Shown: positions 668 through 14,112 of the stretch, piece after piece | Numbering within the stretch: position 1 is the first letter of the stretch | Layout of the letters: each line of letters starts with the position of its first letter | NCBI GenBank assembly: GCA_902598655.1 | Contig: CACKCQ010000004.1 | Coordinates: forward strand, 1-64,000 | Reading direction: 5' to 3' | Source: an uncultured Pelagibacteraceae bacterium | GTDB lineage: Bacteria > Pseudomonadota > Alphaproteobacteria > Pelagibacterales > Pelagibacteraceae | DNA: 64,000 bases | The notes under the pieces: model-generated | The model's database searches: none | What the model was told of the DNA's origin: nothing | Seen by the model: only the letters and a program-made list of their open reading frames with translations | Translations under genes and position numbers: made by a program

Positions 668-2101
668 TTAAAAATTTTCATACTTTTTCTGTATTGACAT
701 TGCATATTCATTAAACTCGTCTAGTAGTGATAGCTTTTCATTATCATTCTCATTAGTATATTTCTCTCTCAGAGTATCAATTTCTGTGTAGAGTGTTGGA
801 ATTGTCCACCATTTTTCTTTCTTGTCACTCAAAATTCGCTTTGCAATTTCTCGTTTTATTGTTCTAAGCATGCTCTCGGGTAGAACTTCGGGTGCCTCTT
901 GATATATGATTTTTTTTCCAAAACCTACTAATCGATCATCATCAAATTTATCTAATAATTTAAGTTTATCTTTCCATGATGCTGCATGCCAAGCAGGAAA
1001 TAAGGCAGTATCTTTGTTTGACGTAAATTTAGTATAAATACTTTCTTCAGCATATATATCTTCTTGTGTTTTAGACTGTTCTTTATCTTCAGCTACTTCT
1101 CTTAATGCATGAAGTATATTTTGAGAAAATTTCTCATTATTTTTAACAATATCTGCTCTTTTATTGATTAATGACTTATCCATAGCACTATAAGGTTCTA
1201 CTTGCATACCGTATTTTGCATCTACAATAATTGGAGCCTTGTTAGATCTAATAGTTCTTAAGAACTTAGGAGACTTTTTCATTTCAACTTTTAGTTCATT
1301 TATTGATAAATTTAATAAAGGCTCAATATCGATCCTCAAATCGAAAGCATAATACCAACCGGCATATATTGGATGCATACAATATTTTTGATGAAGAGGT
1401 GCAACTAGATGAAGTCTAGATTTACCATAATAATATTCATTTAAAGTAATAATTTCCCCTTTCTTAATTATGGTTTCAGTATCAGATTTATTTGCAGTTT
1501 TAAAAAAAGACTCCCAAGTGTCTGGTTGTTTTTTTTTAACTATATTTAAAACTTTAGCAGTCATTATACTATCACTTAATGCGCTATGAGCATCAGTTGA
1601 GTCAATACCTTGCATTCTAGCTAACGATTCTAATTTAAATACTGCATTGTTTTTTTCATTAAATTCTACTTCTAGAATTGAAGGGTCAATTGCATAAGCT
1701 GCACGAGCAATATTAATACCATCATGTCTTTTATTAGGAGCAGCATTTGTAAGATATGGATACCTAATCCCTTTAAAAAACTCTTTTCTTATCATTTCAT
1801 CATCGAATCCAATATTAGACCAACCAAGAAACACAGCTGGGCTCCATTTTTTAAATATTTTTTCAACTTCAGCTAACATTTGATAGTGAGAAAGATTAGT
1901 TTGAGTTAATTGTTTTATTGATGTTTTATTTACAATAAGTGCCATGGCCTGAAAGATTTCTCCTTCAGGTAAACTGCATCTTAGATTAAATCTGTCTTTC
2001 TCTTTAAAGTTCTCATCTACTAAAACTCCACCAATTTCAATTATGCTTCCAAAATCTGTGCTTGCGCTCGATGATTCTATGTCCCAAATTGCTAAATTCA
2101 T
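668..2101 (-). CDS. sbcB: Exodeoxyribonuclease I (single-strand 3'-5' exonuclease)
   Basis: A 477-aa protein, the usual ExoI length. The N-terminal DEDDh exonuclease domain carries the first acidic pair in WDIESSS (Asp7, Glu9), a second in GWSNIGFDDEMIRKEFF, and the late His/Asp in DAHSALSDSIMTAKVL. The SH3-like and helical C-terminal regions of ExoI follow, for example KSPKFLRTIRSNKAPIIVD. The enzyme digests single-stranded DNA 3' to 5' in mismatch repair and recombination control. It is on the same strand as a PD-(D/E)XK nuclease and rmuC, giving a group of three DNA-processing genes. A 124-base gap of featureless AT-rich DNA separates it from the upstream nuclease gene. Confidence 0.9.
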   Translation of the reverse strand: MNLAIWDIESSSASTDFGSIIEIGGVLVDENFKEKDRFNLRCSLPEGEIFQAMALIVNKTSIKQLTQTNLSHYQMLAEVEKIFKKWSPAVFLGWSNIGFDDEMIRKEFFKGIRYPYLTNAAPNKRHDGINIARAAYAIDPSILEVEFNEKNNAVFKLESLARMQGIDSTDAHSALSDSIMTAKVLNIVKKKQPDTWESFFKTANKSDTETIIKKGEIITLNEYYYGKSRLHLVAPLHQKYCMHPIYAGWYYAFDLRIDIEPLLNLSINELKVEMKKSPKFLRTIRSNKAPIIVDAKYGMQVEPYSAMDKSLINKRADIVKNNEKFSQNILHALREVAEDKEQSKTQEDIYAEESIYTKFTSNKDTALFPAWHAASWKDKLKLLDKFDDDRLVGFGKKIIYQEAPEVLPESMLRTIKREIAKRILSDKKEKWWTIPTLYTEIDTLREKYTNENDNEKLSLLDEFNEYAMSIQKKYENF

Positions 2102-2225: not shown

Positions 2226-2912
2226 TCAAGATATATTATTCAATTCGTAAAACTTTTTAACCCTTCCTAAAAATAAATTTTGATACATTTCTAATTCAGC
2301 TCCTTCAATTTTAAATTCTTGGAACAAAATATCTTTAGTACATAATAATATTATTCCTGCTTTCATCTTGGTTCCATGAACAACATCATGAGCTAAAGTG
2401 TATGCTCCTAATTGTAGGAAGTAATCTTGTATATATTCACTTTTCTTAACTTTGTTCGCTTGTTTGAAATCTATCACGACAGGATTACCTTGGTAAACAC
2501 CAATAAGATCAGCGGTTCCAGCGTACTGCTCTGGATAATAAAGTGTTTCTTCCATTCCATATATTTTCTCTAATTTTCCATTAATTCCTTTTTCTATAAT
2601 TTCTTTAGCCATATTTTTATAAAGTTCATTACTTTCAAAAAAACTATCATTAATTCTACCTCGCAAGTAATTTTCAATGTATGAATGAAGATTATTTCCA
2701 CGAGTTGAAGCTTCGGTTTTTATTCTTGTAGCCTCTTTATGACCTACTCTCTCTTTCCAGTTTGCGAGTGCAGCTTTTTCCTCTTCAGATTTTGTTGCAC
2801 TTAAAATTGTTGTCACACTTGGTAGCTTATTATCTCCCAATAAGTACTTTCTGTAACCGTCTTCTAAAGATCTAGAAGATTTTGGATAATTAAATTTGTT
2901 GCTCCACTTCAT
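2226..2912 (-). CDS. PD-(D/E)XK superfamily nuclease (RecB/Cas4-like fold)
   Basis: A 228-aa protein with the signature of small PD-(D/E)XK exonucleases: LPSVTTILSAT near residues 30-40, a GTADLIG box carrying the first metal-binding Asp135, then VVIDFKQAN with Asp148-Phe-Lys150 as the D/E-x-K pair, and a QLGAYTLAH helix carrying the usual Q-x3-Y. It resembles phage-type and RecB-type exonucleases that act on DNA ends. It lies 7 bases downstream of rmuC and is probably co-transcribed with it. I cannot assign a specific function beyond DNA nuclease; host recombination, prophage remnant and defence are all possible. Confidence 0.75.
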   Translation of the reverse strand: MKWSNKFNYPKSSRSLEDGYRKYLLGDNKLPSVTTILSATKSEEEKAALANWKERVGHKEATRIKTEASTRGNNLHSYIENYLRGRINDSFFESNELYKNMAKEIIEKGINGKLEKIYGMEETLYYPEQYAGTADLIGVYQGNPVVIDFKQANKVKKSEYIQDYFLQLGAYTLAHDVVHGTKMKAGIILLCTKDILFQEFKIEGAELEMYQNLFLGRVKKFYELNNIS

Positions 2913-2919
2913 TCATTTT

Positions 2920-3999
2920 TTATGAAACTTTTCTTTTTTCAACTTGTCCGTAGCTGCTTATTGGTGATGGTGTGTCTGGATCTGGATCATCATCATCATT
3001 TGGATTTTTTATAGAGTCGATACTTCTATTAATTGCTCTTGCATCTTTACCAAAACTATCAACAACTGACATAGCTTCCTCTAATTTTTTTCTTAAAACT
3101 AAAACATTATTAAAATGCATATTAAATCTTGTACTTATTTTCTTTAGATGATCATATATTTCTGACGCATGTTTTTTAATTCTTAAACTTTGGAAACCCA
3201 TATGCAGAGATTGTAAATAGCCAGATAAATTATTAGGGCCCATAATAGTTACTTTATATTTCTTCATTAATTCTTGGGTTAATAATTCTTTTGTTGAAGG
3301 ATCTTGGTAGTTAGCTAACTCTAAAAATAAACTTTCAGTTGGAGCATAAACTATTGCAAAATCAACACTCTTTGGTGGAACTATATATTTTTCGTTAACA
3401 CTTTTTGCCTTTTCTTTAAAAGCTCTTGCAAGTTTAGTTCTAGCTTCAGCCATAGCTTTTTTATCATCTTGTTGATGTGCATCTTGGATGGCCTTATATC
3501 TCTCAACAGGAAAATGGCTATCTACTGGAACCAATACACCATCTTGAAGTTTGATTGCAAATTCAACATTTTCACTTGTATCTTCTTTCATCTTTACATT
3601 TGATGAATACTGTGATGCAGGTAATAGATCCTTTAATAATGACTCCAAGCTAAATTCAGCCATAGTCCCATATTTTTTCACGCCGGCAAGTATTTTATTT
3701 ATACTCTCTTGTGACTTGTTTAACTCTGAAACTTGAAAATTAAAGTTGTTAACTTTCTCATTGACGGAAGTTAAAGCTGACGACATATCTTTAGTAACAT
3801 TCTGAGATAGACTATTAAATGAATTGGCCATATTAGAAATAGAGCTATTCATAGTTGATTTTAATTCATCTAGTTGGATTTGAATTTTATTTTCCTTAAT
3901 TTTATCATTTTCGGATGTTTCCTTTTTTTTTAGTTGTAAAAAAATTAGAACAACTATCCCTGTGAAAATAAAGCTTAGTATAATAATTTCTAATGACAT
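2920..3999 (-). CDS. rmuC: DNA recombination protein RmuC homologue
   Basis: A 359-aa protein with an N-terminal membrane anchor (about residues 4-22, IIILSFIFTGIVVLIFLQL). A coiled-coil region to about residue 105 follows, then the RmuC nuclease-like domain: LEDSLL-type segment FSLESLLKDLLP, VDSHFPVERYKAIQDA, and FAIVYAPTESLFLEL. RmuC limits inversion of short repeats in Escherichia coli and has a predicted PD-(D/E)XK-type core. The C-terminus has an acidic DDDDPDPDTP stretch before a short basic tail. It is divergent from the ATPase gene at 4090 with a 90-base shared promoter region, and upstream of the PD-(D/E)XK nuclease. Confidence 0.88.
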   Translation of the reverse strand: MSLEIIILSFIFTGIVVLIFLQLKKKETSENDKIKENKIQIQLDELKSTMNSSISNMANSFNSLSQNVTKDMSSALTSVNEKVNNFNFQVSELNKSQESINKILAGVKKYGTMAEFSLESLLKDLLPASQYSSNVKMKEDTSENVEFAIKLQDGVLVPVDSHFPVERYKAIQDAHQQDDKKAMAEARTKLARAFKEKAKSVNEKYIVPPKSVDFAIVYAPTESLFLELANYQDPSTKELLTQELMKKYKVTIMGPNNLSGYLQSLHMGFQSLRIKKHASEIYDHLKKISTRFNMHFNNVLVLRKKLEEAMSVVDSFGKDARAINRSIDSIKNPNDDDDPDPDTPSPISSYGQVEKRKVS

Positions 4000-4002
4000 A
4001 TT

Positions 4003-4079
4003 TTTTTATATAGCCGCATTTACAATAAATTAAACATTAATAATTAATTTTAAAATAATTATAATGCGGATATTATAAT
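4003..4079. promoter_or_regulatory. Divergent promoter region with paired GCGG(A/C)TAT elements
   Basis: The gap between rmuC and the ATPase gene contains an inverted repeat, CCGCAT (4014-4019) and ATGCGG (4064-4069). Read toward rmuC it gives GCGGCTATATAAA; read toward the ATPase gene it gives GCGGATATTATAAT, with a perfect TATAAT -10 hexamer at 4074-4079. The same GCGGATAT directly before a -10-like TATAAA stands upstream of the sigma-like gene (7107-7119). No convincing -35 TTGACA is seen here. The repeat could bind a dimeric regulator or be an extended -10 element; this is inference. Confidence 0.4.
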
Positions 4080-4089
4080 ACTTAATTAT

Positions 4090-5892
4090 ATGCCAAAAAA
4101 TAGTTTAAACTCTTTGTTATTAAAAAATTTTCGTAGTTATTCCACAACTACAAAAATAAATTTTGGATCGCGAATCACTCTAATTTTTGGTAAGGGAAGT
4201 GTTGGAAAAAGTACAATCATAGACGCGCTTCAAACTCTACATGCATCAGATAGAAATAATACAGATTTATATGATAAGAATTACAAGTTTTTAGTTTCAA
4301 AAAGAATAAAAAATAAAAAAGAAAAAAAGTCTAAAAAAAGAAATATAAGTTTTCCTGTAAGCTTTTCAATCGGTTTGTCATGTAAAGAAAAAGAGGTTGA
4401 TGGTGAATTTAATATAAAATCTGTAGTTAAAGATTTTGCTTTTACTGAATTATACAATTTTCCAATATATGTAAATTTATTTTCAAATGAAGGATCTGAT
4501 CAAAAAGATGATCCTTTTAGTAATTCAAATAGATATCTTGGTATGATGAATATTCCTATAGAATTCAATAAAAACAGAAATCTTAAAGATTTCTATATAT
4601 CTTCAGTAGATTTTTTTGGCAATCAAAACTCTTGGCAGAAATTACATGAGAGTACAAATAAATACAAAAATGAGTTGATTACATATTTAGATAAAATTGA
4701 AAAATTTGAAAAAGATTATTTTCAAATTACTGACCAAATAAGTAAAGTGAAGAAAAAAAATGATAATATATCTCTAAAAAAATTAGAGTCTGATCGAGAT
4801 AAATTGTTTGATAAAGAACTTTACAGTGAAGGCTTTTCTGCTGTTTGGTTTCCGATGTATAAAGAGAGAGAAAATTATAAAAAATTTATAAAGAAAGGAT
4901 CAGACCTTAAAACGTTTATAAATTTTGTTGAAGAAAATATAAAAAAAAATAAACGTTATTTATACAAAAATAATGAACTGTTCACTAGAAGAACCATAAA
5001 AGAGAAGCTTTCTGATAAAGAATTTAATGAGCTTTTGGATAATATAAAAAAACAATTAAAAGGAAATTATTTAATCCAAGGAAATACAACTTTGTCTGAA
5101 TTTTTATGCTACACATTAACAGAAATAGTTTCATTGAAAGAATATAGAAAAGTTGGTGGTTTTCAATTTCCTATTGTGGCTAATAAAGATAGTTTTGTTT
5201 GGAATAAAGAGGGTGGTGAAATAGCCCTAAGCCCTGAAAAAATATTTGATATGTGTAAAAATAAGATAAGTCCTGTTCTAGGACAAATTAAAACAATTAG
5301 ACATCGAGAAAGTTTTAACGATTTAATTAAAAGTCTAAGTCAATACTCCTCTTCCGCTACTAGACAATCAGAGTTTAATGAAATTGTTGAGCAAAATATT
5401 AGAAGTATAAATAAATGGCTTAAAGAATTTGGGTTTGATTTTAAAATAATTATAGAGAAATTTGGTGTAAATGGAGAAAGTCAAATATTTCATCAAAAAA
5501 ATGGATATAAAATACCAGCAGATTTAGGTGGTTCAGGAGCTCAGTATTTACTAACATATTTAACAGAACTCTTAGAAGCTAATGAAAATATAATATTACT
5601 TGAGGAGCCAGAAAAAGCTTTGCATGCATCTTTACAAATAAAATTAGCTGAATTATTTACAGAAATCAGTAAGAACAATCAGTTAGTCATTGAGACTCAC
5701 AGTGAAAATTTACTTTTAGGTATTTTAAAAGAAATTAGAGATAAAAATTTAAATCATCAAGATGTAAAAGTTTTATATGTCTATATGGAAGATGGCGAAT
5801 CTAAAGTTGATGAAGTGATATTAAATGAAAAAGGTGGATTTCGCTCTAAGTGGAGAGATGGATTTTTTACTGAAAAATTAGATTTATTATAA
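4090..5892 (+). CDS. AAA/ABC-type ATPase with C-terminal DUF3696-like region (OLD/RecF-type)
   Basis: A 600-aa SMC/RecF/OLD-type ATPase. The start LLLKNFRSYS is typical of this class and the Walker A motif GKGSVGKST is at residues 34-42. A long Lys-rich helical insertion occupies about 180-330. An ABC-signature-like LGGSGAQYL lies near 480, Walker B IILLEEPEKALH near 501, and the H-loop IETHSENLL near 535. The end (VYMEDGESKVDEV...GGFRSKWRDGFF) matches the DUF3696 tail of predicted ATPases. No TOPRIM domain is visible. The next gene starts on the base after its stop codon, so the two are surely co-expressed. ATPases of this class are common in defence modules paired with a separate effector; that role is inferred here. 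Confidence 0.85.
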   Translation: MPKNSLNSLLLKNFRSYSTTTKINFGSRITLIFGKGSVGKSTIIDALQTLHASDRNNTDLYDKNYKFLVSKRIKNKKEKKSKKRNISFPVSFSIGLSCKEKEVDGEFNIKSVVKDFAFTELYNFPIYVNLFSNEGSDQKDDPFSNSNRYLGMMNIPIEFNKNRNLKDFYISSVDFFGNQNSWQKLHESTNKYKNELITYLDKIEKFEKDYFQITDQISKVKKKNDNISLKKLESDRDKLFDKELYSEGFSAVWFPMYKERENYKKFIKKGSDLKTFINFVEENIKKNKRYLYKNNELFTRRTIKEKLSDKEFNELLDNIKKQLKGNYLIQGNTTLSEFLCYTLTEIVSLKEYRKVGGFQFPIVANKDSFVWNKEGGEIALSPEKIFDMCKNKISPVLGQIKTIRHRESFNDLIKSLSQYSSSATRQSEFNEIVEQNIRSINKWLKEFGFDFKIIIEKFGVNGESQIFHQKNGYKIPADLGGSGAQYLLTYLTELLEANENIILLEEPEKALHASLQIKLAELFTEISKNNQLVIETHSENLLLGILKEIRDKNLNHQDVKVLYVYMEDGESKVDEVILNEKGGFRSKWRDGFFTEKLDLL

Positions 5893-7020
5893 ATGCTATA
5901 TCCATTAATCGTTAGTCCACAATTTATAATGAATATTCCAGATAACAGAGAAAATTATGAAAGATTTGTTGAGTTTTATAAAAAATATAAGGATGTTTGG
6001 ATAGATATATTTATCATTATAGATGATGACCATAATTCACTTATAGAAAATTATAAAAATATTTATGCATCAGACAAAGCTTTGGAACATCCAGAAATTA
6101 GAATTATATTAGAAATTCTCTTCAAATTAAAAAAATATAAATATTCTAATGTGAAGACAGAAGAGAAAATCAATATTAACAATATATCTAAATATCTAAA
6201 AGGTCGTGGAGTTAAAAAAATTGTCGAATTTCCTAATTATTTTAATGATGAATTCATAAATTTAAAAAAATTACAACCCAAGGTAAACTTATATAATTCT
6301 GATTATCATGAAGTTATAGACGAAATATGTTCTATAACAAGGTTTTCAAAAAAAGTTTTTTTAAATGATGCCATGATACCCTATTGTATTTCAAATTTAC
6401 AAAAAATAGAGGATATAAAAGATTTGTCGGATGATCCAGGTAAACTAAGTATAATCGATAAGAAAAATTTACATTATTACAAAATTGGCTTTAAACACCT
6501 AATAAAAAATATTTACGATACTAATTTTTTTCAAAATGAATTAGAAATTTATATTTACACTACATTACATAACTCAAAACTAAAAAAAATTTACAATTAT
6601 TGTAAAAAAAATAATGATGATATTCGCGTTGAGATGTGGGAAAATCTTTCTAAATATATTTCGAGCTCGGTAAAAAAATGTATATCATCCGAAATTGAAA
6701 AATCAAAAAATTGTGTAAAAGAAATTTTCATAAAACAACATTTTAAAGATGGTAAAAAATATAACGATAGCAACAAAATTAATTTTGAAGTTTATGATAG
6801 ATCAATCTTTGTGTTAGATTTAAATTGTGCGATTGAAATTAGAAAAGGAATAGATTTATTCGATGAAAAGTCTGATAATGGTCTTCGATCGGATAGTGGT
6901 TATTATATTAGAAATTATTTAGAGGAAAAAGAGCTAGAAAATGCAAGGCAAATAATCGAACACCCAGATTATGAACCTAGAAAAGTGTATAAATCCAGTA
7001 ATTTTCAACTAAGAGTTTAA
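5893..7020 (+). CDS. Unknown protein partner of the DUF3696 ATPase; possible C-terminal MIT_C/phospholipase-D-like domain
   Basis: A 375-aa protein starting on the base after the ATPase stop. The N-terminal 60 residues have a strand-rich pattern with an acidic tip (WIDIFIIIDDDHNSLIEN). The C-terminal third has FEVYDRSIFVLDLNCAIEI followed by KGIDLFDEK (about residues 299-325). This resembles the HDR-x-I ... GLD-x-F pattern of prokaryotic MIT_C (phospholipase D-like) domains, except that the expected His is Tyr301, so catalysis may be lost or altered. That assignment is from memory of the pattern and is tentative. It is probably the effector or sensor subunit of a two-gene module. No close relative is recognised with confidence. 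Confidence 0.7.
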   Translation: MLYPLIVSPQFIMNIPDNRENYERFVEFYKKYKDVWIDIFIIIDDDHNSLIENYKNIYASDKALEHPEIRIILEILFKLKKYKYSNVKTEEKININNISKYLKGRGVKKIVEFPNYFNDEFINLKKLQPKVNLYNSDYHEVIDEICSITRFSKKVFLNDAMIPYCISNLQKIEDIKDLSDDPGKLSIIDKKNLHYYKIGFKHLIKNIYDTNFFQNELEIYIYTTLHNSKLKKIYNYCKKNNDDIRVEMWENLSKYISSSVKKCISSEIEKSKNCVKEIFIKQHFKDGKKYNDSNKINFEVYDRSIFVLDLNCAIEIRKGIDLFDEKSDNGLRSDSGYYIRNYLEEKELENARQIIEHPDYEPRKVYKSSNFQLRV

Positions 7021-7089
7021 TTTTAATAAAATACTCAATAAATACCCTATTTATTTAAGATTATTGACTAAAAAATTTTTTATTAATCG

Positions 7090-7120
7090 TTGAAAAAATT
7101 TATTTCGCGGATATATAAAT
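7090..7120 (+). promoter_or_regulatory. Candidate promoter of the sigma-like/NurA-HerA unit
   Basis: TTGAAA at 7090-7095 and TATAAA at 7114-7119 stand 18 bases apart, with GCGGATAT (7107-7114) abutting the -10 element, as at the divergent rmuC/ATPase promoters. The start codon at 7141 is only about 15 bases past the expected transcription start and has no Shine-Dalgarno sequence, so the message may be nearly leaderless. The TTGAAA also resembles the -35 of RpoH-type promoters, but the -10 does not. Confidence 0.4.
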
Positions 7121-7140
7121 ATTAGGCAGCAAGCACATGA

Positions 7141-8160
7141 ATGCCAAATTTACAAAACAAGCTTGCTTCCAATTCTGTAATAAAATCAATTAGTGACTTC
7201 ACTAATTCGATTGATGTTAAAATATCCGATGAAATAAAGCTAGTAACAAAAAGAATAGACTTAAAATCAGGAATATATAAAAATTGTACAAACCTAGCAC
7301 TAGCATATTGTACGCTTAACACATATCAACAAAAACAATCTATTATCTACAAAGCTTTAAAAAAAGTTTTTAAACCTTCAAATTACAGATTGGAAAACGA
7401 CAAAGAGAATACTGAAGATATTATTTCTGAAGCACTTTACTTATTAAGAAAATCAGCAATAAAATTTCTAGAGAAAAATGGACAAAAACTAGATTATAAT
7501 TTTGATCAATTTGCAATAGTACAAATTAGAGAAGGAATAAAATCTTATAAAAGTAAATGGAATAACTTAAATGGATCCGACAGGAACGAATTAATACACT
7601 CAGCTATTAGAGCAATCAAAAAGAGAAATTGTATAAAGGGAGAACGATTAAATTATGAAGAAGCTAAACATTTAGCAAACCATTTTAACTTATGCAAAAA
7701 TACAGGTTATAAAGTTATTTGGGATTTAGAAGGTCTACATTTTGAAAAAAAGGCTGACTGGAAGAAAATAGATGACCGAAATGAAGAAGTTCATGTTTCA
7801 GAAAATTTTAAAAAAGGAAATTGTCTTCCCAATAACATTGCTTTATCAAGTAATTTGAAATCATATTTTAATACACCTGAATTAAGATCTGCAGGAGAAA
7901 AAGTTTTTATTGATGACGAAAAAAGAAATACAAAAAAAGTTATAAATCAGTTTATTAATCATGAGCTTAATTCCTTTAATGAACAAATAATTTTTAAAAA
8001 AAGATTATATTGCGAAAAAAATAACGAAATTAAATTAAAGCACTTATCTTCAGAATTAGGAATATCAATTCAAAGGATAAGTGTTATTGAAAAAAATCTA
8101 AAAAATAAATTTAAAATTTTCTACTCTGTTGAAAAACAAAAAAGTGAGGGAATTAATTAA
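7141..8160 (+). CDS. Divergent sigma-70 family protein, RpoH (sigma-32)-like layout
   Basis: A 339-aa protein aligning by eye with RpoH from end to end. Region 2: EDIISEALYLLRKSAIKF...YNFDQFAIVQIREGIKSY (92-136) matches the DLIQEG...F-YA--WIR--I-EY core. RpoH-specific segment: NELIHSAIRAIKKRN and LNYEEAKHLANHFNL (149-184). Region 4.1/4.2: FNEQIIFKKRL followed by the helix-turn-helix LKHLSSELGISIQRISVIEKNL (about 279-320). The tryptophan dyad used for promoter melting (WW before IR in RpoH) is VQ here, so it may be a weak, altered or non-initiating sigma. It heads the NurA-HerA transcription unit. A real housekeeping RpoH would be far better conserved, so this is probably an accessory paralogue. 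Confidence 0.65.
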   Translation: MPNLQNKLASNSVIKSISDFTNSIDVKISDEIKLVTKRIDLKSGIYKNCTNLALAYCTLNTYQQKQSIIYKALKKVFKPSNYRLENDKENTEDIISEALYLLRKSAIKFLEKNGQKLDYNFDQFAIVQIREGIKSYKSKWNNLNGSDRNELIHSAIRAIKKRNCIKGERLNYEEAKHLANHFNLCKNTGYKVIWDLEGLHFEKKADWKKIDDRNEEVHVSENFKKGNCLPNNIALSSNLKSYFNTPELRSAGEKVFIDDEKRNTKKVINQFINHELNSFNEQIIFKKRLYCEKNNEIKLKHLSSELGISIQRISVIEKNLKNKFKIFYSVEKQKSEGIN

Positions 8161-8162
8161 TT

Positions 8163-8498
8163 ATGTATTTTAATTTTAACAAAACTAAACAAAGGAGGTT
8201 ATCTTCACATAACTTTTCTAGCTTTGGTAAGAGTAGCTGTCGAGTAGCGGTAACGCCTCGATCACTTGGTTCTCCTTTCATTCCTTTCTATCATAACCAA
8301 GTGTCTTTCTGCAGCAACTCTTCCAAGGCCAGAAAGAGTATTAAAATTCATTTTAGAAGTTTTTCTAACAGAAAATCATGTTTCCTTTTCAAAAAAAAAT
8401 TAAAAGAAAAGTTTTATAATTTCTCAAACAAAAAATTAAAAATTAGAACCAATATTAGAGGAACTAAAATTCAATATTATTGTGGAGCAAATGCATGA
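8163..8498 (+). CDS. Doubtful 111-codon ORF filling the gap between sigma-like gene and nurA
   Basis: The ORF starts 2 bases after the sigma-like stop and ends in an ATGA overlap with the nurA start, which is the spacing of a real operon gene. Against this, the translation has no Asp and one Glu in 111 residues, is rich in Ser, Lys and Phe, and by my count only about one codon in ten begins with G, far below real genes. It also covers the strongly base-paired segment at 8191-8340. It is probably not a normal protein gene; it is listed because the fit to the gap is striking. Confidence 0.2.
   Translation: MYFNFNKTKQRRLSSHNFSSFGKSSCRVAVTPRSLGSPFIPFYHNQVSFCSNSSKARKSIKIHFRSFSNRKSCFLFKKKLKEKFYNFSNKKLKIRTNIRGTKIQYYCGANA
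8191..8340 (+). ncRNA. Candidate structured RNA (three-way junction with GNRA tetraloop and possible pseudoknot)
   Basis: A GC-rich segment (about 45% by hand count over 8221-8340) in very AT-rich surroundings folds compactly. P1: 8212-8239 pairs with 8312-8339, about 24 pairs with a few bulges and mismatches. P2: UCGAG/CUCGA (8240-8244 with 8257-8261) plus GCG/CGC closed by the tetraloop GUAA (8250-8253). P3: CACUUGGUU/AACCAAGUG (8263-8271 with 8295-8303), nine perfect pairs. The P3 loop contains CUCCUUU (8272-8278), complementary to AAAGGAG at 8191-8197, so a 7-bp pseudoknot is possible. A small hairpin GUUAU/AUAAC follows the AAAGGAGG. It could be a leader/riboregulator of nurA-herA or a free RNA. 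I match it to no known family. Confidence 0.55.
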
Positions 8499-9802
8499 CA
8501 TTAAAAGTGGATATTAAAGACAAAATTAAACAAAACTCGTCAATGTTTGTTAACTTTATAAAAAACGCAATAACTGCATCTCCAAAAGTACAAAATAATT
8601 TCTTAGAAGTAACAACTAAAGTTGCTGAAACAGCTTTAAAAATTATTAAAGATGCCGACCTGATTGTTGATCTAAATTATAAAGGTAAAGAATTTTGGTC
8701 AATAAATCGTTGCAAAACCTCATGTTTTATAGATGGAGGTGTTGATAGAACATCAATAATTAGCTCTGCCCCATTAAGCATAAGAGCTGGAAGCTATATA
8801 GTTAAACCAGACGCAACCAGTAAAAGAGAATTCTTTGAAGAAAGCATGGTTTTTCTAGGCGACTTATATGATCCAAAAAATGAACTATATGATTTTGTTG
8901 ACGATGATTTTGAAGAAGATCAAATGCTCAATAAAAAGAAAGATGGTGCAAGAATTATATTTGAAGCTGCTACAATTGTTAAACACATCTTATTAAATAA
9001 AAAATTTGATTACTGTTTTCTCCATGGCCCACTAGAAGCAACTGTAATGCCATTTACAGTTGCGGGCTTTCCAACCTTTACAAAATTTGCTGTTGAAAAT
9101 ATGTTTCCATTTATAAGTAAAAATTCAAGTGTAGAGGCTAGACATTTTATTAATGCTTATTTGGAAGCACTTAATTATATAAAGAAAAGTAAATTCCCAA
9201 TATATGGTATTGTTGAGACATCTAATTCAGCGCCATACATTAAAAATTTATTATTTAATTATAAAATCAAAGGTACAATTTCTGATAAAGATTATAATTC
9301 AGTAATTAAAACTATTAAAAAATATAAAATTACTGACTCTCATATTCTTGAGATCATTTTATCAAGTGGCCAGGCCTTAAAGCCTCTTGAAGTAAAAAAA
9401 CAGCTTGCAGGCTTTACGGTTACAAGTGGTTCAGCTTGGGAAGAAAAAATGGATAGCTTTCCTAAAGTATTTATTGGTTATATTAAAACATCAGACAATC
9501 AAGCGCCAGTAAGAATTGAATCACTAAATTATCCAAAACATTTGATCAAAGATTATGAATATATTTTAGGAACTTCAAGGTTATTACCTAATTATGGATT
9601 TCCAGTTGGTTTAAATGTTGTCGATAAATTTGCAAAAATTCCAAACTGGATGAGTAAAACTTCTAGGAAATATTACGCAACCCATTTGTTAAGACAAGCT
9701 ATAAAAAATAAAGACCAAAACACTGTTAGTCTTGCAGTAAAAATTTTATCAAAAAAATCAAGGTCTTGGAAAAATAGACCAATAGGAGGTATATCAAAAT
9801 GA
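8495..9802 (+). CDS. nurA: NurA-domain 5'-3' nuclease
   Basis: A 435-aa protein from the ATG at 8495, chosen because GGAG lies about 10 bases upstream; a TTG at 8480 in frame lacks this support. NurA hallmarks: the metal-binding FIDGGVDRTS near residues 78-87 (Asp80), the middle FLHGPLEATVMPF, and the C-terminal FPKVFIGYIKTSD...RIESLNYP with GFPVGLNVVDKFAKIP, matching the NurA pattern of a YIK-type strand, RVE and a late Asp. NurA is a ring-shaped 5'-3' exo/endonuclease that works inside a HerA hexamer to resect DNA ends. The next gene is HerA with an ATGA overlap, so the pair is complete. NurA-HerA is usual in archaea and patchy in bacteria; here it is out of place in an alphaproteobacterial core region. 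Confidence 0.85.
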   Translation: MTLKVDIKDKIKQNSSMFVNFIKNAITASPKVQNNFLEVTTKVAETALKIIKDADLIVDLNYKGKEFWSINRCKTSCFIDGGVDRTSIISSAPLSIRAGSYIVKPDATSKREFFEESMVFLGDLYDPKNELYDFVDDDFEEDQMLNKKKDGARIIFEAATIVKHILLNKKFDYCFLHGPLEATVMPFTVAGFPTFTKFAVENMFPFISKNSSVEARHFINAYLEALNYIKKSKFPIYGIVETSNSAPYIKNLLFNYKIKGTISDKDYNSVIKTIKKYKITDSHILEIILSSGQALKPLEVKKQLAGFTVTSGSAWEEKMDSFPKVFIGYIKTSDNQAPVRIESLNYPKHLIKDYEYILGTSRLLPNYGFPVGLNVVDKFAKIPNWMSKTSRKYYATHLLRQAIKNKDQNTVSLAVKILSKKSRSWKNRPIGGISK

Positions 9803-11493
9803 GTAAATTTAATAATTGGAAAGCAATAGGAACTGTATTAGGTGAAACTGATATCAATGAGTATCACTTTAGTTTAAAAAATTATAAGGCCAAAAAAGGA
9901 GACATAGTGACTACAGCTTCAAGGCTTCCGTCTACAGATGGCACAGTGATACCTGTTACAGTTTGGGGAAAAATTTCAAGTATTGAAAGATTTAATGCAT
10001 TCTTTCCGGCAGAGGCTGCTCAAGAACTGACAAACGAAGATATAGATATAAGAGATACTATACTTCCTACAACAAAAGATGAGTTAAGATGTAAAGTTAT
10101 CATCCTAGGCTACACAGAGGATGGAAAAGAAAAAATATCTAAACTTTTACCATTAAATTATCCAGTCATGCCTGCTGCAATAGTGAAATATCCCTCAAGT
10201 AAAGACGTAGAGGAGTTATTTATCTCTGATTTAGACAGTTCTCATCCAATCTCAATTGGTAATTTGCTTGCTAGAAAAGACGTGGAAATCAAGATCGATG
10301 GGGATAATTTAATATCTCGACATATCTCGGTATGGGGAATGTCTGGATCTGGTAAGACTGTTTTTGTTAGAAGAATACTTACTGAATTATTAAATTTAAA
10401 ATATCCAAGTTTTGTTTTAGATATACATGGAGATTACTTAGGGTTCGTTCAAAAACAAAAAAAATATTTCCCAGATAATAAAGTTAAATTATTTTACCCT
10501 AATTTAAGTGTTAGAGCTGAAGATAAAGAAATAGTTTATACTTTAATAGATAAACTAGGAAATACGCTAACAGATCCACAAAGAGATTTCTTAAACTCTC
10601 TTTTAGAAAAAATTAAATACGAAGGTGGAAGTCTTCTTCAATATATTAAATTATTAAATGTAAAAGCAAGAGAGTTTGCATCATCAGGTTCTACTTCATT
10701 CAAAAATGTTAAACCTGCTTCCATGTTTGTTGTGGCTAGAAGCTTAAGAATTGTATCTAAAAAACTTGAAAACATGGAACAAACAAATGCAAGACACAGA
10801 AGAAAGATGAGTCATCTTAAATTTGAAGAATTACCAGACTCAGCAACCGAACCAGAAAAAATTATTTCTAAAGGTCAGATGAGTATATTGTATTTAAGAG
10901 GTTATGAAAATTTACCAGCAAGCGCAATCGTTTCAATAGTATTGGAAAATCTATTCAGACACAGACAAGAAGCAAGCGAAGAAATTGCACCATTCTTTAC
11001 TGTAATTGAAGAAGCCCATAACTTCATTCCCTCAAGATCTGAAAACAAAGATGATATTCCATCTGTGGATACAATTAGAAAAGTAATCTCAGAGGGTAGA
11101 AAATTCGGGACTGGGGTTATGATAATCTCTCAAAGACCATCTAGAGTAGACGAAACGATTGCTTCACAATGTAATAGTCAGGTTGTATTTAGGATTGTCA
11201 ATCAAAGAGACCAAAGAGCAACAACAAGAGACTCTGAAACTTTAAGCAATGATGATGCAAAACAATTACCTAACTTAGCAAATGGCCAAGGTATAATCAG
11301 CGGACAAATCGTAAATTATTCTTTACCTGTTCAAATAAAATTTGATGAAAAATTAATCAATGACGATATTGGAAATGAAAACTTCATTGATACTGTTGAA
11401 AATTGGGATGATAAAGAATCTGTAAAACTGAGAAAAAAGTTTGCAAAAGATTTTGCAGATATAAATGAAATAGATAGTAGGAGGGCAAATTGA
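9799..11493 (+). CDS. herA: HerA-type DNA translocase ATPase
   Basis: A 564-aa protein. It has an N-terminal HAS-barrel-like domain, Walker A GMSGSGKT at residues 180-187 followed by the HerA motif VLDIHGDYLGF, and Walker B FFTVIEEAHNFIPSR (399-413). The conserved GRKFGTGVMIISQRPSRVDE, with a sensor glutamine/arginine region, and FRIVNQRDQRATTRD follow. These are the features of the HerA/FtsK superfamily, whose hexamers pump DNA and power NurA. Its start overlaps the nurA stop by 4 bases and has a strong AGGAGGT ribosome site 8 bases upstream. Expected role: DNA end resection, in repair or in defence. Confidence 0.9.
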   Translation: MSKFNNWKAIGTVLGETDINEYHFSLKNYKAKKGDIVTTASRLPSTDGTVIPVTVWGKISSIERFNAFFPAEAAQELTNEDIDIRDTILPTTKDELRCKVIILGYTEDGKEKISKLLPLNYPVMPAAIVKYPSSKDVEELFISDLDSSHPISIGNLLARKDVEIKIDGDNLISRHISVWGMSGSGKTVFVRRILTELLNLKYPSFVLDIHGDYLGFVQKQKKYFPDNKVKLFYPNLSVRAEDKEIVYTLIDKLGNTLTDPQRDFLNSLLEKIKYEGGSLLQYIKLLNVKAREFASSGSTSFKNVKPASMFVVARSLRIVSKKLENMEQTNARHRRKMSHLKFEELPDSATEPEKIISKGQMSILYLRGYENLPASAIVSIVLENLFRHRQEASEEIAPFFTVIEEAHNFIPSRSENKDDIPSVDTIRKVISEGRKFGTGVMIISQRPSRVDETIASQCNSQVVFRIVNQRDQRATTRDSETLSNDDAKQLPNLANGQGIISGQIVNYSLPVQIKFDEKLINDDIGNENFIDTVENWDDKESVKLRKKFAKDFADINEIDSRRAN

Positions 11494-11810
11494 TCGAAGT
11501 TTTAAACTTAACTGAAATAATGGAATTAGCCCTTAAAATAACTTTGATTTTTTATGGTGTTTTTGTCTTTTACTTATTTGGAAAATTTGAAAAAATACCT
11601 TACTCAGCAAGACAGACTATATTTGTAATAGGAAATGGTGGTTGTTTATTTTTGGCTGGAGGCCTTATAACTAGCAATTTTTTTCTCATAAAAGGTGGAA
11701 TTTTTATATTGATAATTCACGCACTTATCGATGCTCATTATTTAATTTCAAGATACGAAATGTTTAAAGAATTGGAGAAAGAAGAGAAGAAAAGTAATGA
11801 AAAAAAATAA
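11490..11810 (+). CDS. Small three-helix membrane protein, unknown
   Basis: A 106-aa protein starting with TTG that overlaps the herA stop; AGGAGGG sits about 6 bases upstream and decides the start. Three hydrophobic segments are visible: about 15-33 (LKITLIFYGVFVFYLFG), 43-63 (TIFVIGNGGCLFLAGGLITS) and 68-86 (GGIFILIIHALIDAHYLI). A charged tail rich in Glu and Lys ends it. It is unrecognised. Tight coupling to herA suggests it belongs to the same system, possibly as a membrane anchor or effector; this is inference. Confidence 0.7.
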   Translation: MIEVLNLTEIMELALKITLIFYGVFVFYLFGKFEKIPYSARQTIFVIGNGGCLFLAGGLITSNFFLIKGGIFILIIHALIDAHYLISRYEMFKELEKEEKKSNEKK

Positions 11811-11985
11811 AAATTTTAATTGTCCAGCATGTAATGGGATTGGGGAAATAAAAGTAATTAAAAATATAGCTCAAATAGGTCCATTTCATCTAGGAAAGGA
11901 AGTAATGGAAAAATGTAATTTCTGCAAAACATACAGAAATGAAAAAAATTTATTAGATGAAGAATTTAGAGGAACTGTACACTAA
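11797..11985 (+). CDS. Small zinc-ribbon-like protein, unknown
   Basis: A 62-aa protein with two cysteine pairs: CPACNGIG at residues 9-16, resembling one repeat of the DnaJ zinc finger, and CNFC at about 40-43. They are set far enough apart to bind one zinc ion. It overlaps the preceding gene by 14 bases and the next by 1 base. No family can be named. Possible roles are RNA, DNA or protein binding within the locus. Confidence 0.6.
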   Translation: MKKNKNFNCPACNGIGEIKVIKNIAQIGPFHLGKEVMEKCNFCKTYRNEKNLLDEEFRGTVH

Positions 11986-12311
11986 TGGGTAAATTACTAG
12001 CTGTTGATGACTTAGAAATAATTTTCGAAAAGCAAAATGACAATCATGATTGCAGATGGTGTGTATATGTTAGGGCTAGAAAAGGACAAAAGGAAAAAAA
12101 TGTTTTGATGATTAAATTGAATAATAAACCTTACACAAGATTCTTAATGAATAACGGCACCATAGTTAAAAATTCCAAAGATGTTTTGAAAGACATAATG
12201 TCTAATATTGTTCAACTTATTTGGGAGATGCCTGTAAGCAAACTTGAGAAAAATATTATGAAAAAGTCAAATAAAAAGAAATTAAAGAAAAGTGGAAACT
12301 ATAGAAATTAA
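11985..12311 (+). CDS. Hypothetical protein, unknown
   Basis: A 108-aa protein with a compact, probably alpha/beta N-terminal 85 residues (DDLEIIFEKQ, CRWCVYVRARKG, NVLMIKLNNKPYTRFL) and a Lys-rich tail. It has one CRWC cysteine pair. Its ATG overlaps the TAA of the zinc-ribbon gene (TAATG), so translation is coupled. I do not recognise it. Confidence 0.6.
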   Translation: MGKLLAVDDLEIIFEKQNDNHDCRWCVYVRARKGQKEKNVLMIKLNNKPYTRFLMNNGTIVKNSKDVLKDIMSNIVQLIWEMPVSKLEKNIMKKSNKKKLKKSGNYRN

Positions 12312-12588
12312 AGAAGAAAAAGCTATTAAAGTTTTAATAAGTCCAAGTAAAAATGGATTTAATTGTGTAATTGATATTAAAAATAAAGATAATTTAAATT
12401 CTGCTGAAGAAGAACTGTGCACAACCATTGCAAGGGGCCTAGTTCAACAAGCGACTTCAAGACCAAGCCAAACTTTTAAAATGGGATTAAAAGCTATAAA
12501 GAAAGATAAAAAAATTATTAGTGATAAGCTAAGTAAAGAACAAAATAATGTAATAGATTTTTATAAATATATATCAAGACCAAGATGA
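12292..12588 (+). CDS. Hypothetical protein, unknown
   Basis: A 98-aa protein that starts with GTG inside the end of the previous gene (20-base overlap). The middle segment CTTIARGLVQQATSRPSQTF looks like a conserved amphipathic helix pair and ends KMGLKAIKKDKK. There are no signal or membrane segments. I do not recognise it; similar ARG-x5-ATS-P helices occur in small proteins of phage and alphaproteobacteria, as far as I recall. Confidence 0.55.
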   Translation: METIEIKEEKAIKVLISPSKNGFNCVIDIKNKDNLNSAEEELCTTIARGLVQQATSRPSQTFKMGLKAIKKDKKIISDKLSKEQNNVIDFYKYISRPR

Positions 12589-12616
12589 TAAAATTTAAAT
12601 CAACAAAGTTTTAAAT

Positions 12617-12805
12617 ATGAAAAATAAAGAAATATCTCTTCCAAGAATAATTAAACTATATAAAAAAAAAGGGATGCCCTCAAAAGAAGCAAAAAAAAAT
12701 GCTAAAAATTATATTGCTGGGTACACAACAGCTAAAAAAGGAAGTATTAATAAAAAAACATCAAAAAAATGGTCGAAAAAGAAAAGATATGGAAAAAATA
12801 AATAA
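12617..12805 (+). CDS. Small very basic protein, unknown
   Basis: A 62-aa protein, about 40% Lys/Arg, with a short ordered part (LPRIIKLYKKKGMPSKEA, NYIAGYTTAKKG) and a Lys-rich tail. It is likely a nucleic-acid binder if real. It starts 28 bases after the previous gene and ends 9 bases before the next, in the same direction. A Lys-rich ORF can arise by chance in such AT-rich DNA, so confidence is moderate. Confidence 0.45.
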   Translation: MKNKEISLPRIIKLYKKKGMPSKEAKKNAKNYIAGYTTAKKGSINKKTSKKWSKKKRYGKNK

Positions 12806-12814
12806 TAATAATTT

Positions 12815-13402
12815 ATGGATTTAAGGGAATTTTTACAGAATCAAATAAAAAAGGGAAATATAAACTGGAGGAGTAAAAGTGAGTTAGTACGTGCATCAGG
12901 CAATAATATAAGTGGAAATAACGCAAAAATTATAAAAGAATACGAGAATAAATTTCAATTTGGCTCAGAAATAGAAATTAAAAATAAAGAAATACTTAAA
13001 TATTTTAATGCCCAACCAAAGAATAGTTTTATAAGTGTGGAAGGTGCTGCAAAAAAGATACAAGCAAAACTACCAGACAAAATAATTATCTCTGAAACAA
13101 TAATTTATAATAGATTAAAAGACCCAAAATTTAATAAAAACAATTTAAAACCACAAACATTAGATAACCAAGTATCTAAAACCGCTCCTTATAAAGTTAA
13201 AATCACAGATGAATTAAAAAACAAAATGAAACAATTAAGAGAGCCAGGAATTTATCTTTATTTAGAAGTTACACAAAGTGGTAATAATACTTTAAGACTA
13301 AAACTAAATGGCGAATTGTTTGAAAATTCAGATACATCGTATCCACCAAATTTAAATAGTTTAAAGCTTATTGAGCAAAAAATAAAAGACTCGAGAAAGT
13401 AA
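12815..13402 (+). CDS. Hypothetical protein at the end of the NurA-HerA locus
   Basis: A 195-aa soluble protein, last plus-strand gene before the convergent hisG (20 bases away). The N-terminal part has short helices that could form a DNA-binding fold (KSELVRASGNNISGNNAKII, about 21-40, and VEGAAKKIQAKL, about 75-86). The C-terminal part is strand-rich (GIYLYLEVTQSG, TLRLKLNGELF). No known family is recognised. Its position makes it a candidate accessory factor of the locus. Confidence 0.6.
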   Translation: MDLREFLQNQIKKGNINWRSKSELVRASGNNISGNNAKIIKEYENKFQFGSEIEIKNKEILKYFNAQPKNSFISVEGAAKKIQAKLPDKIIISETIIYNRLKDPKFNKNNLKPQTLDNQVSKTAPYKVKITDELKNKMKQLREPGIYLYLEVTQSGNNTLRLKLNGELFENSDTSYPPNLNSLKLIEQKIKDSRK

Positions 13403-13422: not shown

Positions 13423-14112
13423 TTAATTAGAGAGAGTTTTAATTAAACTCTTTGAGCCAGATATAGCAATTTTTGTCTTTGATAATAATAAGCATGCCTG
13501 AGAATTAAGTATTATTCCGTCTTTTAATATCCTTAAATTGTTAGCCTTTAAAGTTGCTCCTGTTGAAGTTATATCGGTTATAATTTCTGATGATCCAGTA
13601 AATGGGTATATCTCTGTTGCGCCGAGACTCTTTACCAATTTAAATTGTGTAACTCCTCTTGAGAACATGAATTCTCTGGTTAGATTAGGATATTTTGTAG
13701 CTATACGTAATCTATTTTTTTTTTTATCTTTAAATTCAAAAGCTATTTCTTCAAGATCAGGCATTGTCTGTACATCTATCCAATCATCTGGAATTGCAAC
13801 TACCAATGTAGCCTCTCCAAAATTGTACCTTTTTTTTACAATCACCTTTTTTTGAATATTAATTTCGCTTTCCATTAATAAATCATATCCAGAAAAACCA
13901 ATATCTAAAGATCCATCTGCAAGACGTTCTACTATCTCTCTAGCATGAAGATAATAAATAACTATATTTTTTTTTCCTTTGATAAATCCAAATAAGTCTC
14001 TCTCACCTCTTTCAGATAAAATTTTTAATTTCTTTTTTTTAAAAATATTTAATACTCCAGACCGTAAACGACCTTTACTAGGAATTCCAATTTTAATAAT
14101 GTTGTTACTCAT
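13423..14112 (-). CDS. hisG: ATP phosphoribosyltransferase, short catalytic form
   Basis: A 229-aa short-form HisG. It has IGIPSKGRLRSGV at the start, LDIGFSGYDLL, the PRPP-binding stretch EIITDITSTGATLKANNLRIL and the ending NSQACLL. It catalyses ATP + PRPP to phosphoribosyl-ATP, the first step of histidine synthesis. Short forms lack the regulatory domain and need HisZ, which is encoded two genes upstream. Its start overlaps the sulfotransferase stop by 8 bases. It converges on the island without overlapping it, unlike the other convergent pairs in the window. Confidence 0.95.
   Translation of the reverse strand: MSNNIIKIGIPSKGRLRSGVLNIFKKKKLKILSERGERDLFGFIKGKKNIVIYYLHAREIVERLADGSLDIGFSGYDLLMESEINIQKKVIVKKRYNFGEATLVVAIPDDWIDVQTMPDLEEIAFEFKDKKKNRLRIATKYPNLTREFMFSRGVTQFKLVKSLGATEIYPFTGSSEIITDITSTGATLKANNLRILKDGIILNSQACLLLSKTKIAISGSKSLIKTLSN

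Follow-up and report, generated by a model that had tools for sequence, protein, structure and literature searches.

A nurA-herA island of SAR11 bacteria with an exchangeable cassette that encodes a divergent sigma-70 homologue

Introduction

In the DUF4297-HerA complex a HerA ATPase and a nuclease encoded in one bacterial locus degrade DNA and stop phage (PMC11291478). A HerA ATPase and a nuclease are likewise encoded side by side in the locus analyzed here, an island between rmuC and hisG within a 64,000-nucleotide stretch of the genome of an uncultured Pelagibacteraceae bacterium (contig CACKCQ010000004.1, positions 1 to 64,000; hereafter the window), to which an earlier reading made from the sequence alone had drawn attention (hereafter the original prediction). 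Compared with that complex, the nuclease here is NurA-like, none of the 10 scanned window proteins having matched DUF4297 at E up to 1, and the locus also holds a sigma factor homologue, an exchangeable cassette, a structured RNA and a flanking rmuC operon.

In the HerA/FtsK anti-invader capture systems, too, HerA is found together with a nuclease and with rapidly evolving proteins that bind DNA or act as sensors; they are equipped with ORC/Cdc6-like ATPases and winged helix-turn-helix proteins, whereas a sigma-70 gene, private promoters or cassette exchange are not described in the part of the account accessible to us (PMC12839542). The same source mentions a BrxL protein with a domain resembling a sigma helix-turn-helix (PMC12839542), and type III-E CRISPR is said to cleave a sigma inhibitor (PMC11291478). 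The latter is likewise a defence that acts through a sigma factor, but neither CRISPR nor protease genes were seen at the present locus, where the putative sigma is itself encoded in a hypervariable cassette together with matched local motifs. SAR11 bacteria have been described with only two sigma factors, to which the locus would add a divergent third one, carried in that hypervariable cassette (PMC13198564).

Parts of the locus also resemble systems of other kinds. PARIS consists of an AriA ATPase and an AriB effector of the Toprim type. An ATPase of the AAA_15 type followed by a separate gene is found here as well, and AriA is among the three solved-structure matches of our ATPase, but the partner encoded here is phospholipase D (PLD)-like and not Toprim, no believable Pfam match having been obtained for it, and a sigma homologue and nurA-herA follow. 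Extracytoplasmic function (ECF) sigma groups are autoregulated from group-specific promoters, such that sigma class and promoter motif change together and the sigma drives its own operon, as we propose for the present locus; the cassette sigma is, however, RpoH-like and not of ECF length, and its alleles are replaced at one site before a constant nuclease operon. Type I restriction systems undergo allelic exchange of their specificity subunits, and in these too a variable specificity part stands beside a constant enzymatic part, but here three genes, one of them for a sigma homologue, are exchanged together with promoter-like sites.

We know of no system that swaps sigma alleles with matched promoters before a constant nuclease module, and none was found in the literature searched, which covered the field in part (few subscription papers and few bioRxiv preprints). 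We regard the arrangement as categorically new, its parts as belonging to or resembling known families, and its function as putative. On balance we lean towards reading the island as an exchangeable regulator/sensor cassette joined to a constant nuclease module, the whole controlling a DNA-end-processing regulon that is probably antiphage.

Results and Discussion

A nurA-herA island at one chromosomal site

Comparison of loci showed that a block of ~9 kb between rmuC and hisG is there as a whole or absent (Table 1). The hisG regions were taken from 12 of 20 nurA-less genomes, and in 11 of the 12 hisG was found directly beside rmuC, with gaps of 30-181 bp; therefore the island is present or absent at a single site. 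In the twelfth genome (L074) the hisG region holds other genes. Members of a second genus also carry the locus (L039, L038 and L095), again with rmuC as the left neighbour, and with a different right side.

In most of the relatives searched the island was not found. A NurA profile had matches in 9 of 297 genomes of the order, and HerA relatives were found in 4 of 147 genomes of the family, the own genome being counted in both cases; beyond SAR11, among 289 genomes of the class (Alphaproteobacteria), the own genome was the sole match of the NurA profile. A pattern-based scan of species genomes provided 21 distinct nurA loci. A phage origin was considered and set aside: a pattern-based search of viral_contigs, which reaches close relatives only, yielded no relatives of HerA or the sigma homologue, and a PHROGs scan of 10 window proteins (without HerA and the ATPase) gave a match for NurA alone, a weak one to an ATPase family (E 0.0088).

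Two halves can be distinguished in the island. The constant half comprises a structured RNA inside an open reading frame (ORF) of 111 amino acids (aa), nurA, herA and three small genes; upstream of it, the variable half encodes an AAA_15 ATPase, a PLD-fold protein and the sigma-70 factor homologue. All the parts listed in the original prediction are present in the window: the nurA-herA pair, a sigma-like gene before it, an RNA with a stable fold and six small ORFs. The interval that it gave for them, 7141-13402, contains these parts and starts too late: two genes inherited together with these parts, and two promoter-like sites, are located further upstream, and we therefore place the start of the unit near 4010 and not at 7141.

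The cassette is replaced as a unit

Immediately upstream of the RNA-bearing ORF, 21 of 23 nurA-herA loci (window included) carry three co-directional genes, which encode an ATPase, a protein of 317-436 aa and a sigma-like protein of 288-339 aa. The denominator is made up of the nurA-herA loci with enough upstream sequence; left out were L001-L004, L026-L035, L040-L042 and L094, which duplicate, in part or in whole, genomes already in the count or G134 (= L011), and L009, L011, L018 and L023, in which the upstream sequence is incomplete. In L014, L017 and L022 the second and third cassette genes were judged by place and size alone. The two loci lacking the cassette are L038 and L037, the latter a divergent nurA-herA with other neighbours. 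The cassette slot of L038 (G089, 6117-8403) is occupied by two genes on the opposite strand, whose products are 656 aa (with an HTH_26 domain) and 107 aa long. In L037 (G231:C1:307500-327000) the divergent pair, at 8582-12529, has 27% and 39% identity, and the protein encoded before it has zinc fingers of the DksA/TraR and topoisomerase types; neither cassette nor RNA was found there.

The two halves differ sharply in how far they are conserved. Among the window, L005, L006 and L020, NurA is 98-100% and HerA 99-100% identical, whereas the ATPase, PLD-fold protein and sigma homologue are only 14-58% identical. When identity matrices were compared over 16 loci (Mantel test), those of the trio covaried (Spearman 0.57, 0.73 and 0.53; p 0.001 each), and those of the RNA ORF, nurA and herA were correlated with one another (0.50-0.82; p 0.012 or less), but correlations between the two sets were -0.10 to 0.00. 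Five sigma classes, A to E, were distinguished, with the window in class A; on a tree of 21 NurA sequences they require 11 changes, the minimum being 4 and the mean after shuffling 11.0.

The borders of the exchange are visible in the DNA. Identity with L005 and L020 ends near the rmuC start (at 3792 and 3822, respectively) and resumes at 8177 (L005) and 8169 (L020), just 5' of an invariant AGGAGGT. With L006, which has the same sigma class as the window, the DNA alignment extends deeper into the cassette, up to 6061, and picks up again at 7491. These comparisons showed that a cassette consisting of the ATPase gene, the PLD-fold protein gene, the sigma homologue gene and the region before rmuC is replaced as a unit next to a nearly identical RNA ORF, nurA and herA. 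The original prediction was right that a sigma-like gene accompanies nurA-herA in SAR11, and the association of sigma gene, RNA, nurA and herA is not accidental, relatives carrying it too; what the grouping as drawn had missed is that the sigma gene belongs to a three-gene cassette which is exchanged independently of nurA-herA and has promoter-like sites of its own, one of them facing rmuC.

The third cassette gene encodes a divergent sigma-70 homologue

The window protein gave sub-threshold matches to two NCBIfam models, namely sigma70-ECF (TIGR02937; E 4.1e-7, 29.8 bits against a curated cut-off of 42.9) and sigma-32 (E 0.0014, likewise under its cut-off). In Pfam it matched none of the sigma models, its hits being confined to HTH_19 (E 0.0059) and a family taken as chance (E 0.81). 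Its homologues by position were more informative: a profile of 15 of them matched SigA with E 1.3e-20 and RpoH with E 2.4e-17, 10 of the 15 aligned sequences matched Pfam Sigma70_r4 at E up to 0.1, and the class A and class B profiles matched each other with a probability of 95.9 and E 5e-9.

A structure model of the window protein, with a predicted local distance difference test (pLDDT) score of 66 and a predicted TM-score of 0.39, was compared with solved structures. Foldseek returned E. coli sigma-32 (8hkc) as the best match (E 5.7e-4), one of 3 at E up to 0.001, and among the 50 matches listed all were sigma or RNA polymerase entries by title, with low global TM-scores of ~0.2. The VIA comparison reached Z of up to 9.3 with a root-mean-square deviation near 15, values that are not decisive for a helical model. 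Taken together, the profile and model comparisons identify the protein encoded at 7141-8160 as a divergent sigma-70 homologue.

The class B profile had two matches in each of 10 genomes, a better one of ~300 aa and another of ~610-640 aa, which by size we read as RpoH and RpoD. The RpoH-like label of the original prediction is accordingly a fair one, the better match being the RpoH-sized protein in all 10 genomes. The class A sigma of the own genome was missed by the class B profile and by Pfam Sigma70_r4; the sigma classes are therefore far apart, and further divergent sigmas elsewhere could escape detection for the same reason.

Sigma class and promoter-like motif change together

The pattern TTGAA-N12-RCGGNTAT precedes the sigma gene in all seven class A loci, its half-sites being constantly 12 nucleotides apart. 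After the region between rmuC and the ATPase gene had been read, the pattern was widened from TTGAA to TTKAA, and in this form it has exactly 3 sites in the 64-kb window, where 0.06 are expected and none of 100 shuffles had at least 3. The whole genome has 5 exact class A sites and the reversed control 1, and among 74 loci the pattern was present in 14, all of them class A loci or pieces of their genomes.

Other patterns were found with the other classes, [AC]GTRTATYH in class B and TTKAC-N13/14-RGAATA in class C. Counting each strand of a rmuC-ATPase region as a slot, the full class A pattern was present in 10 of 14 slots and its -10 half in 13 of 14. For the class B motif 11 of 12 slots were filled, against a mean of 0.41 and a maximum of 3 after shuffling. 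The class C pattern was present in 5 of 10, each time facing rmuC; each motif is absent from the rmuC-ATPase regions of the other two classes. An unsupervised comparison of the sequence upstream of the sigma gene with that between rmuC and the ATPase gene was made across 20 loci. The same-class excess was 1.84 bits for the ATPase strand and 3.67 bits for the rmuC strand, and none of 2000 permutations reached either value.

It was thereby shown that classes A, B and C are each paired with a promoter-like motif of their own before the sigma gene and facing rmuC, and in classes A and B before the ATPase gene also. From this correspondence we infer that the cassette sigma probably acts with RNA polymerase at promoters. 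Close relatives thus appear to run the same DNA-processing machine under different private controls.

The ATPase and its PLD-fold partner

Against PADLOC models the ATPase matched NsnB (2e-27) better than AriA (3e-22), and its three matches among solved structures, with E ~1e-3, are one SMC protein and two AriA entries. An ATPase of this kind, resembling those of PARIS and related systems, is also encoded in the scanned cassettes of classes B, C, D and E (L005, L020, L008 and L024).

The second cassette protein has no believable Pfam family among 15 members (best E 0.029). A likeness to the C-terminal domain of MITD1 was first proposed from its motif and then tested by structure comparison. 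The model is of moderate confidence (mean pLDDT 64.6) and shows a PLD-like fold in residues 124-366; the first Foldseek match was MITD1 (2ymb, E 8.6e-4), which also appeared with E 3.0e-3. Over residues 124-366 the VIA Z score was 8.9 with MITD1 and reached 9.3 with a phospholipase D; PLDs and MITD1 led the 19 chains with Z of at least 8. We therefore describe the protein as PLD-like in fold, and a phosphodiesterase or lipid-binding role is putative.

The trio might alternatively be a selfish or addictive, toxin-antitoxin-like element lodged beside nurA-herA, with the sigma as antidote or guard and control of nurA-herA and rmuC as a by-product. The covariation of the trio and its movement as a unit would fit such an element, as would the position of the motif within or at the edge of the cassette, and toxin-type immune pairs such as PARIS likewise consist of an ATPase and an effector encoded apart from it. 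However, the second-gene profile had matches in 5 of 297 genomes of the order, each of which is also nurA-positive, so that the cassette was not encountered alone in that sample, and a by-product would hardly lead one to anticipate that the rmuC-facing motif recurs in classes A, B and C. We consider this explanation improbable.

The constant nuclease module

The window NurA falls just short of its Pfam cut-off (Table 1), and its homologue in L038, 58% identical, passes with 22.2 bits. Its likely true start is the ATG at 8495. A NurA profile found no NurA among solved structures; its one match, a pentatricopeptide repeat protein with E 0.004, was taken as spurious. HerA matched the NCBIfam HerA model with E 2.4e-50, below the curated cut-off. 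In L013 and L014 herA is split into two frames, with breaks near 9980 and 10730, by sequencing error or decay. A gene for a 220-aa protein lies between nurA and herA in one clade, namely in L025 (9326-9988), L007 and L024; the one in L025, the sole one scanned, had a weak sub-threshold match to DUF7508.

The grouping of six coupled small genes after herA into one unit, as in the original prediction, is not supported: the first three recur in 17, 19 and 18 of 19 loci, the fourth is sporadic, and the last two were found at the corresponding position in none of the 19 (Table 1). The constant half is otherwise ~92-97% identical in DNA to L005, L006 and L020, which lack a segment of 0.8 kb with ORFs of 62 and 195 aa (12599-13402 of the window).

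A structured RNA within a reading frame

The RNA is more stable than its shuffled versions (z = -5.1; none of 200 as stable) and could be aligned in the window and 20 nurA loci. RNAalifold with these 21 sequences gave a three-way junction of 28 pairs, in which 96.0% of cells are paired and 11 pairs have changed on both sides, against 4.9 in shuffles; none of 500 shuffles reached any of five measures, and structures slid along the alignment had at most 5 both-side pairs. A covariance model, searched against 20 sources, recognized the RNA in the window, L036, L040-L042 and L039 (58.8 bits), and weakly in L038 (26.3 bits, E 0.007), where the 111-aa ORF also has a weak homologue (E 6e-4). The model had matches in 8 of 297 family genomes, and none in the divergent L037 or in any of 12 nurA-less loci; in SAR11 the RNA goes with nurA-herA, as in the original prediction. 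Three weak matches (E 0.03-0.8) are the opposite strand of true ones. Apart from three tRNAs, no Rfam family reached its gathering score in the window, and five sub-threshold matches in 8100-8520 were taken as chance.

The ORF is open in the window and the 20 loci. Over the window and nine loci, the ratio of nonsynonymous to synonymous polymorphism (pN/pS) for residues 61-111 is 0.31, and pS drops from ~0.60 (nurA and herA) to 0.52 (3' half of the ORF), 0.30 (junction) and 0.14 (vicinity of AGGAGGT). A plain non-coding leader was rejected in part, the ORF being open in all 21 sequences and its 3' half constrained as described. AGGAGGT as a ribosome site was also rejected: judged by eye, most loci are without a suitably spaced start codon downstream, although L038 and L021 do have one. 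Base pairing between AGGAGGT and the pyrimidine-rich loop was also considered, again by eye. The plainest guess is that the RNA, which would be a new structured RNA inside coding sequence, acts in translation of the coupled nurA.

A candidate defence locus with a proposed exchangeable control layer

The mechanism that we propose is as follows. The sigma would bind host RNA polymerase and read mainly class-matched sites, and would therefore transcribe itself, the ATPase-PLD pair, the RNA-nurA-herA operon and the operon of rmuC, nuclease and exonuclease I. The ATPase and the PLD-fold protein may sense infection or damage and release, activate or stabilize the sigma. DNA ends, most likely of phage DNA, would then be degraded or resected by HerA-NurA together with RmuC and exonuclease I. 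Exchange of the cassette would alter what is sensed, and a private promoter could keep the response independent of RpoD and RpoH and of phage factors aimed at them.

Presence and absence, exchange and hypervariability suggest an arms race. Because of these signs, and because a HerA-nuclease pair that stops phage is known (PMC11291478), we hold defence to be the likeliest role, with a little more than even confidence, and DNA repair to be its main rival. Parts of a defence type are also present, in that the ATPase resembles the NsnB and AriA models, HerA resembles antiphage HerA models, and a nuclease operon flanks the island. A more specific version is possible and more doubtful, namely an immune locus with a variable control layer, in which a sensor (ATPase-PLD), an orthogonal sigma and its promoters are swapped by recombination at one site, such that takeover of RpoD or RpoH by a phage cannot silence HerA-NurA, RmuC and exonuclease I.

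Several observations weigh against our interpretation. On the side of the proteins, the class A profile alone had no significant match to solved structures (best E 0.04), the models of the sigma homologue and the PLD-fold protein are both of middling confidence, and in L038 the cassette slot before nurA-herA is filled by a module without a sigma. On the side of the motifs, 4 class A sites were found in the window against 1.44 expected when one mismatch was allowed, and classes D and E, of one locus each, show none of the three motifs. The class patterns were drawn by eye from the same loci, and class B brings together sigmas with identities down to 32%. A blind leave-one-out search at width 11 regained the motif in 7 of 7 class A loci, 2 or 3 of 6 in class B and 0 of 5 in class C, being right in 9 or 10 of 18 depending on the scoring rule; a motif of width 26 was rejected, having caught shared downstream sequence and separated the classes poorly. 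Given the poor result at width 26 and a good one at width 11 for class A only, we take the permutation test as the basis of the pairing and the by-eye patterns as its description. In that test related loci are not independent, and some loci do not beat half of the other-class regions, namely L022 on the rmuC strand and, on that of the ATPase, L016, L024 and L039.

Also at odds with the interpretation, two of the 11 empty sites (L072 and L073) carry a class-B-like motif directly before rmuC, and a search of their genomes with the class B profile brought up no cassette sigma. This would be expected if the class motifs served a different DNA-binding protein as operators, or were RpoH promoters of the host, with the sigma homologues regulating something else. 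We think this very improbable: among the 74 loci the class A motif is restricted to class A loci and pieces of their genomes, motif class equals sigma class in A, B and C with the permutation result given above, and two half-sites at constant spacing in every class A sigma promoter argue against it. The motif of L072 and L073 may have been left behind by a cassette since lost, or may be a native promoter of the RpoH type.

Finally, genes for resection could serve repair. A lineage-specific stress sigma might turn on rmuC, exonuclease I and nurA-herA after DNA damage, and in favour of such a repair or stress regulon every predicted target operon holds DNA-end-processing genes, the closest match of the class B sigmas is, to judge by its size, the stress sigma RpoH, and HerA has its best score with a model of HerA in double-strand-break repair. 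A general repair response would, on the other hand, sit awkwardly with the lack of a NurA match in 288 of 297 genomes of the order (144 of 150 among those at least 90% complete and at most 5% contaminated), and with sigma classes that are scattered at random over the nurA tree and an identity of 14-58% in the trio between near-identical hosts. We therefore judge repair unlikely, if less so than the other alternatives considered here. Were the antiphage reading true, transcriptional specificity, besides target recognition, would be under arms-race selection in an immune locus, and the cassettes would offer a natural set of candidate orthogonal sigma-promoter pairs.

Features and flanking genes

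Table 1. Features of the island and its flanks, in window coordinates, with the basis of each assignment
Feature	Coordinates	Strand	Basis or remark
Exonuclease I-like gene, third in rmuC operon	668..2101	-	Pfam Exonuc_X-T_C E 1.4e-17
PD-(D/E)XK-like nuclease gene, second in rmuC operon	2226..2912	-	PDDEXK_1 E 2.8e-4, 21.3 bits, cut-off 22
rmuC, left neighbour of insertion site	2920..3999	-	Pfam RmuC E 3.5e-48
Predicted cassette-sigma promoter facing rmuC	4010..4034	-	TTKAA-N12-RCGGNTAT; same place in 7/7 class A loci tabulated
Predicted cassette-sigma promoter of ATPase and PLD-fold protein genes	4049..4073	+	-10 half in 6/7 class A loci, full pattern in 3/7
AAA_15-family ATPase, first cassette gene	4090..5892	+	Pfam AAA_15 E 1.8e-20
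PLD-fold protein, second cassette gene, 375 aa	5893..7020	+	Structure model; likeness to MITD1 C-terminal domain
Predicted autoregulatory promoter of sigma gene and nurA-herA operon	7090..7114	+	TTGAA-N12-GCGGATAT; same spacing in 7/7 class A loci
Sigma-70 homologue of the cassette, class A	7141..8160	+	NCBIfam TIGR02937, fold search, profile of position homologues
111-aa ORF carrying the RNA	8163..8498	+	Stop overlaps nurA ATG at 8495
Structured RNA, three-way junction at ~8220-8330 behind invariant AGGAGGT	8186..8345	+	Fold and covariation
nurA	8480..9802	+	Pfam NurA 19.6 bits, just below cut-off 21; herA adjacent
herA, translocase ATPase	9799..11493	+	Pfam DUF87 E 9.5e-26, 91.7 bits, cut-off 23.2; PADLOC HerA E 7.2e-50
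Small conserved gene	11490..11810	+	17/19 loci with downstream sequence; hydrophobic by eye
Small conserved gene	11797..11985	+	19/19 loci; zinc-ribbon-like CxxC pairs; weak DnaJ_CXXCXGXG E 0.013
Small conserved gene	11985..12311	+	18/19 loci
Small gene, sporadic	12292..12588	+	4/19 loci, also L036
Small gene seen in the window alone	12617..12805	+	0/19 loci
195-aa gene seen in the window alone	12815..13402	+	0/19 loci at corresponding position
hisG, right neighbour of insertion site	13423..14112	-	Joined to rmuC in 11/12 empty sites

The exonuclease I-like gene is found beside rmuC in occupied and empty sites alike. On the other flank, a gene at 14105-14950 lies between hisG and a hisZ-like gene; it has no relatives in the other loci examined, and has them in L005, L006, L009, L010, L020, L063 and L064.

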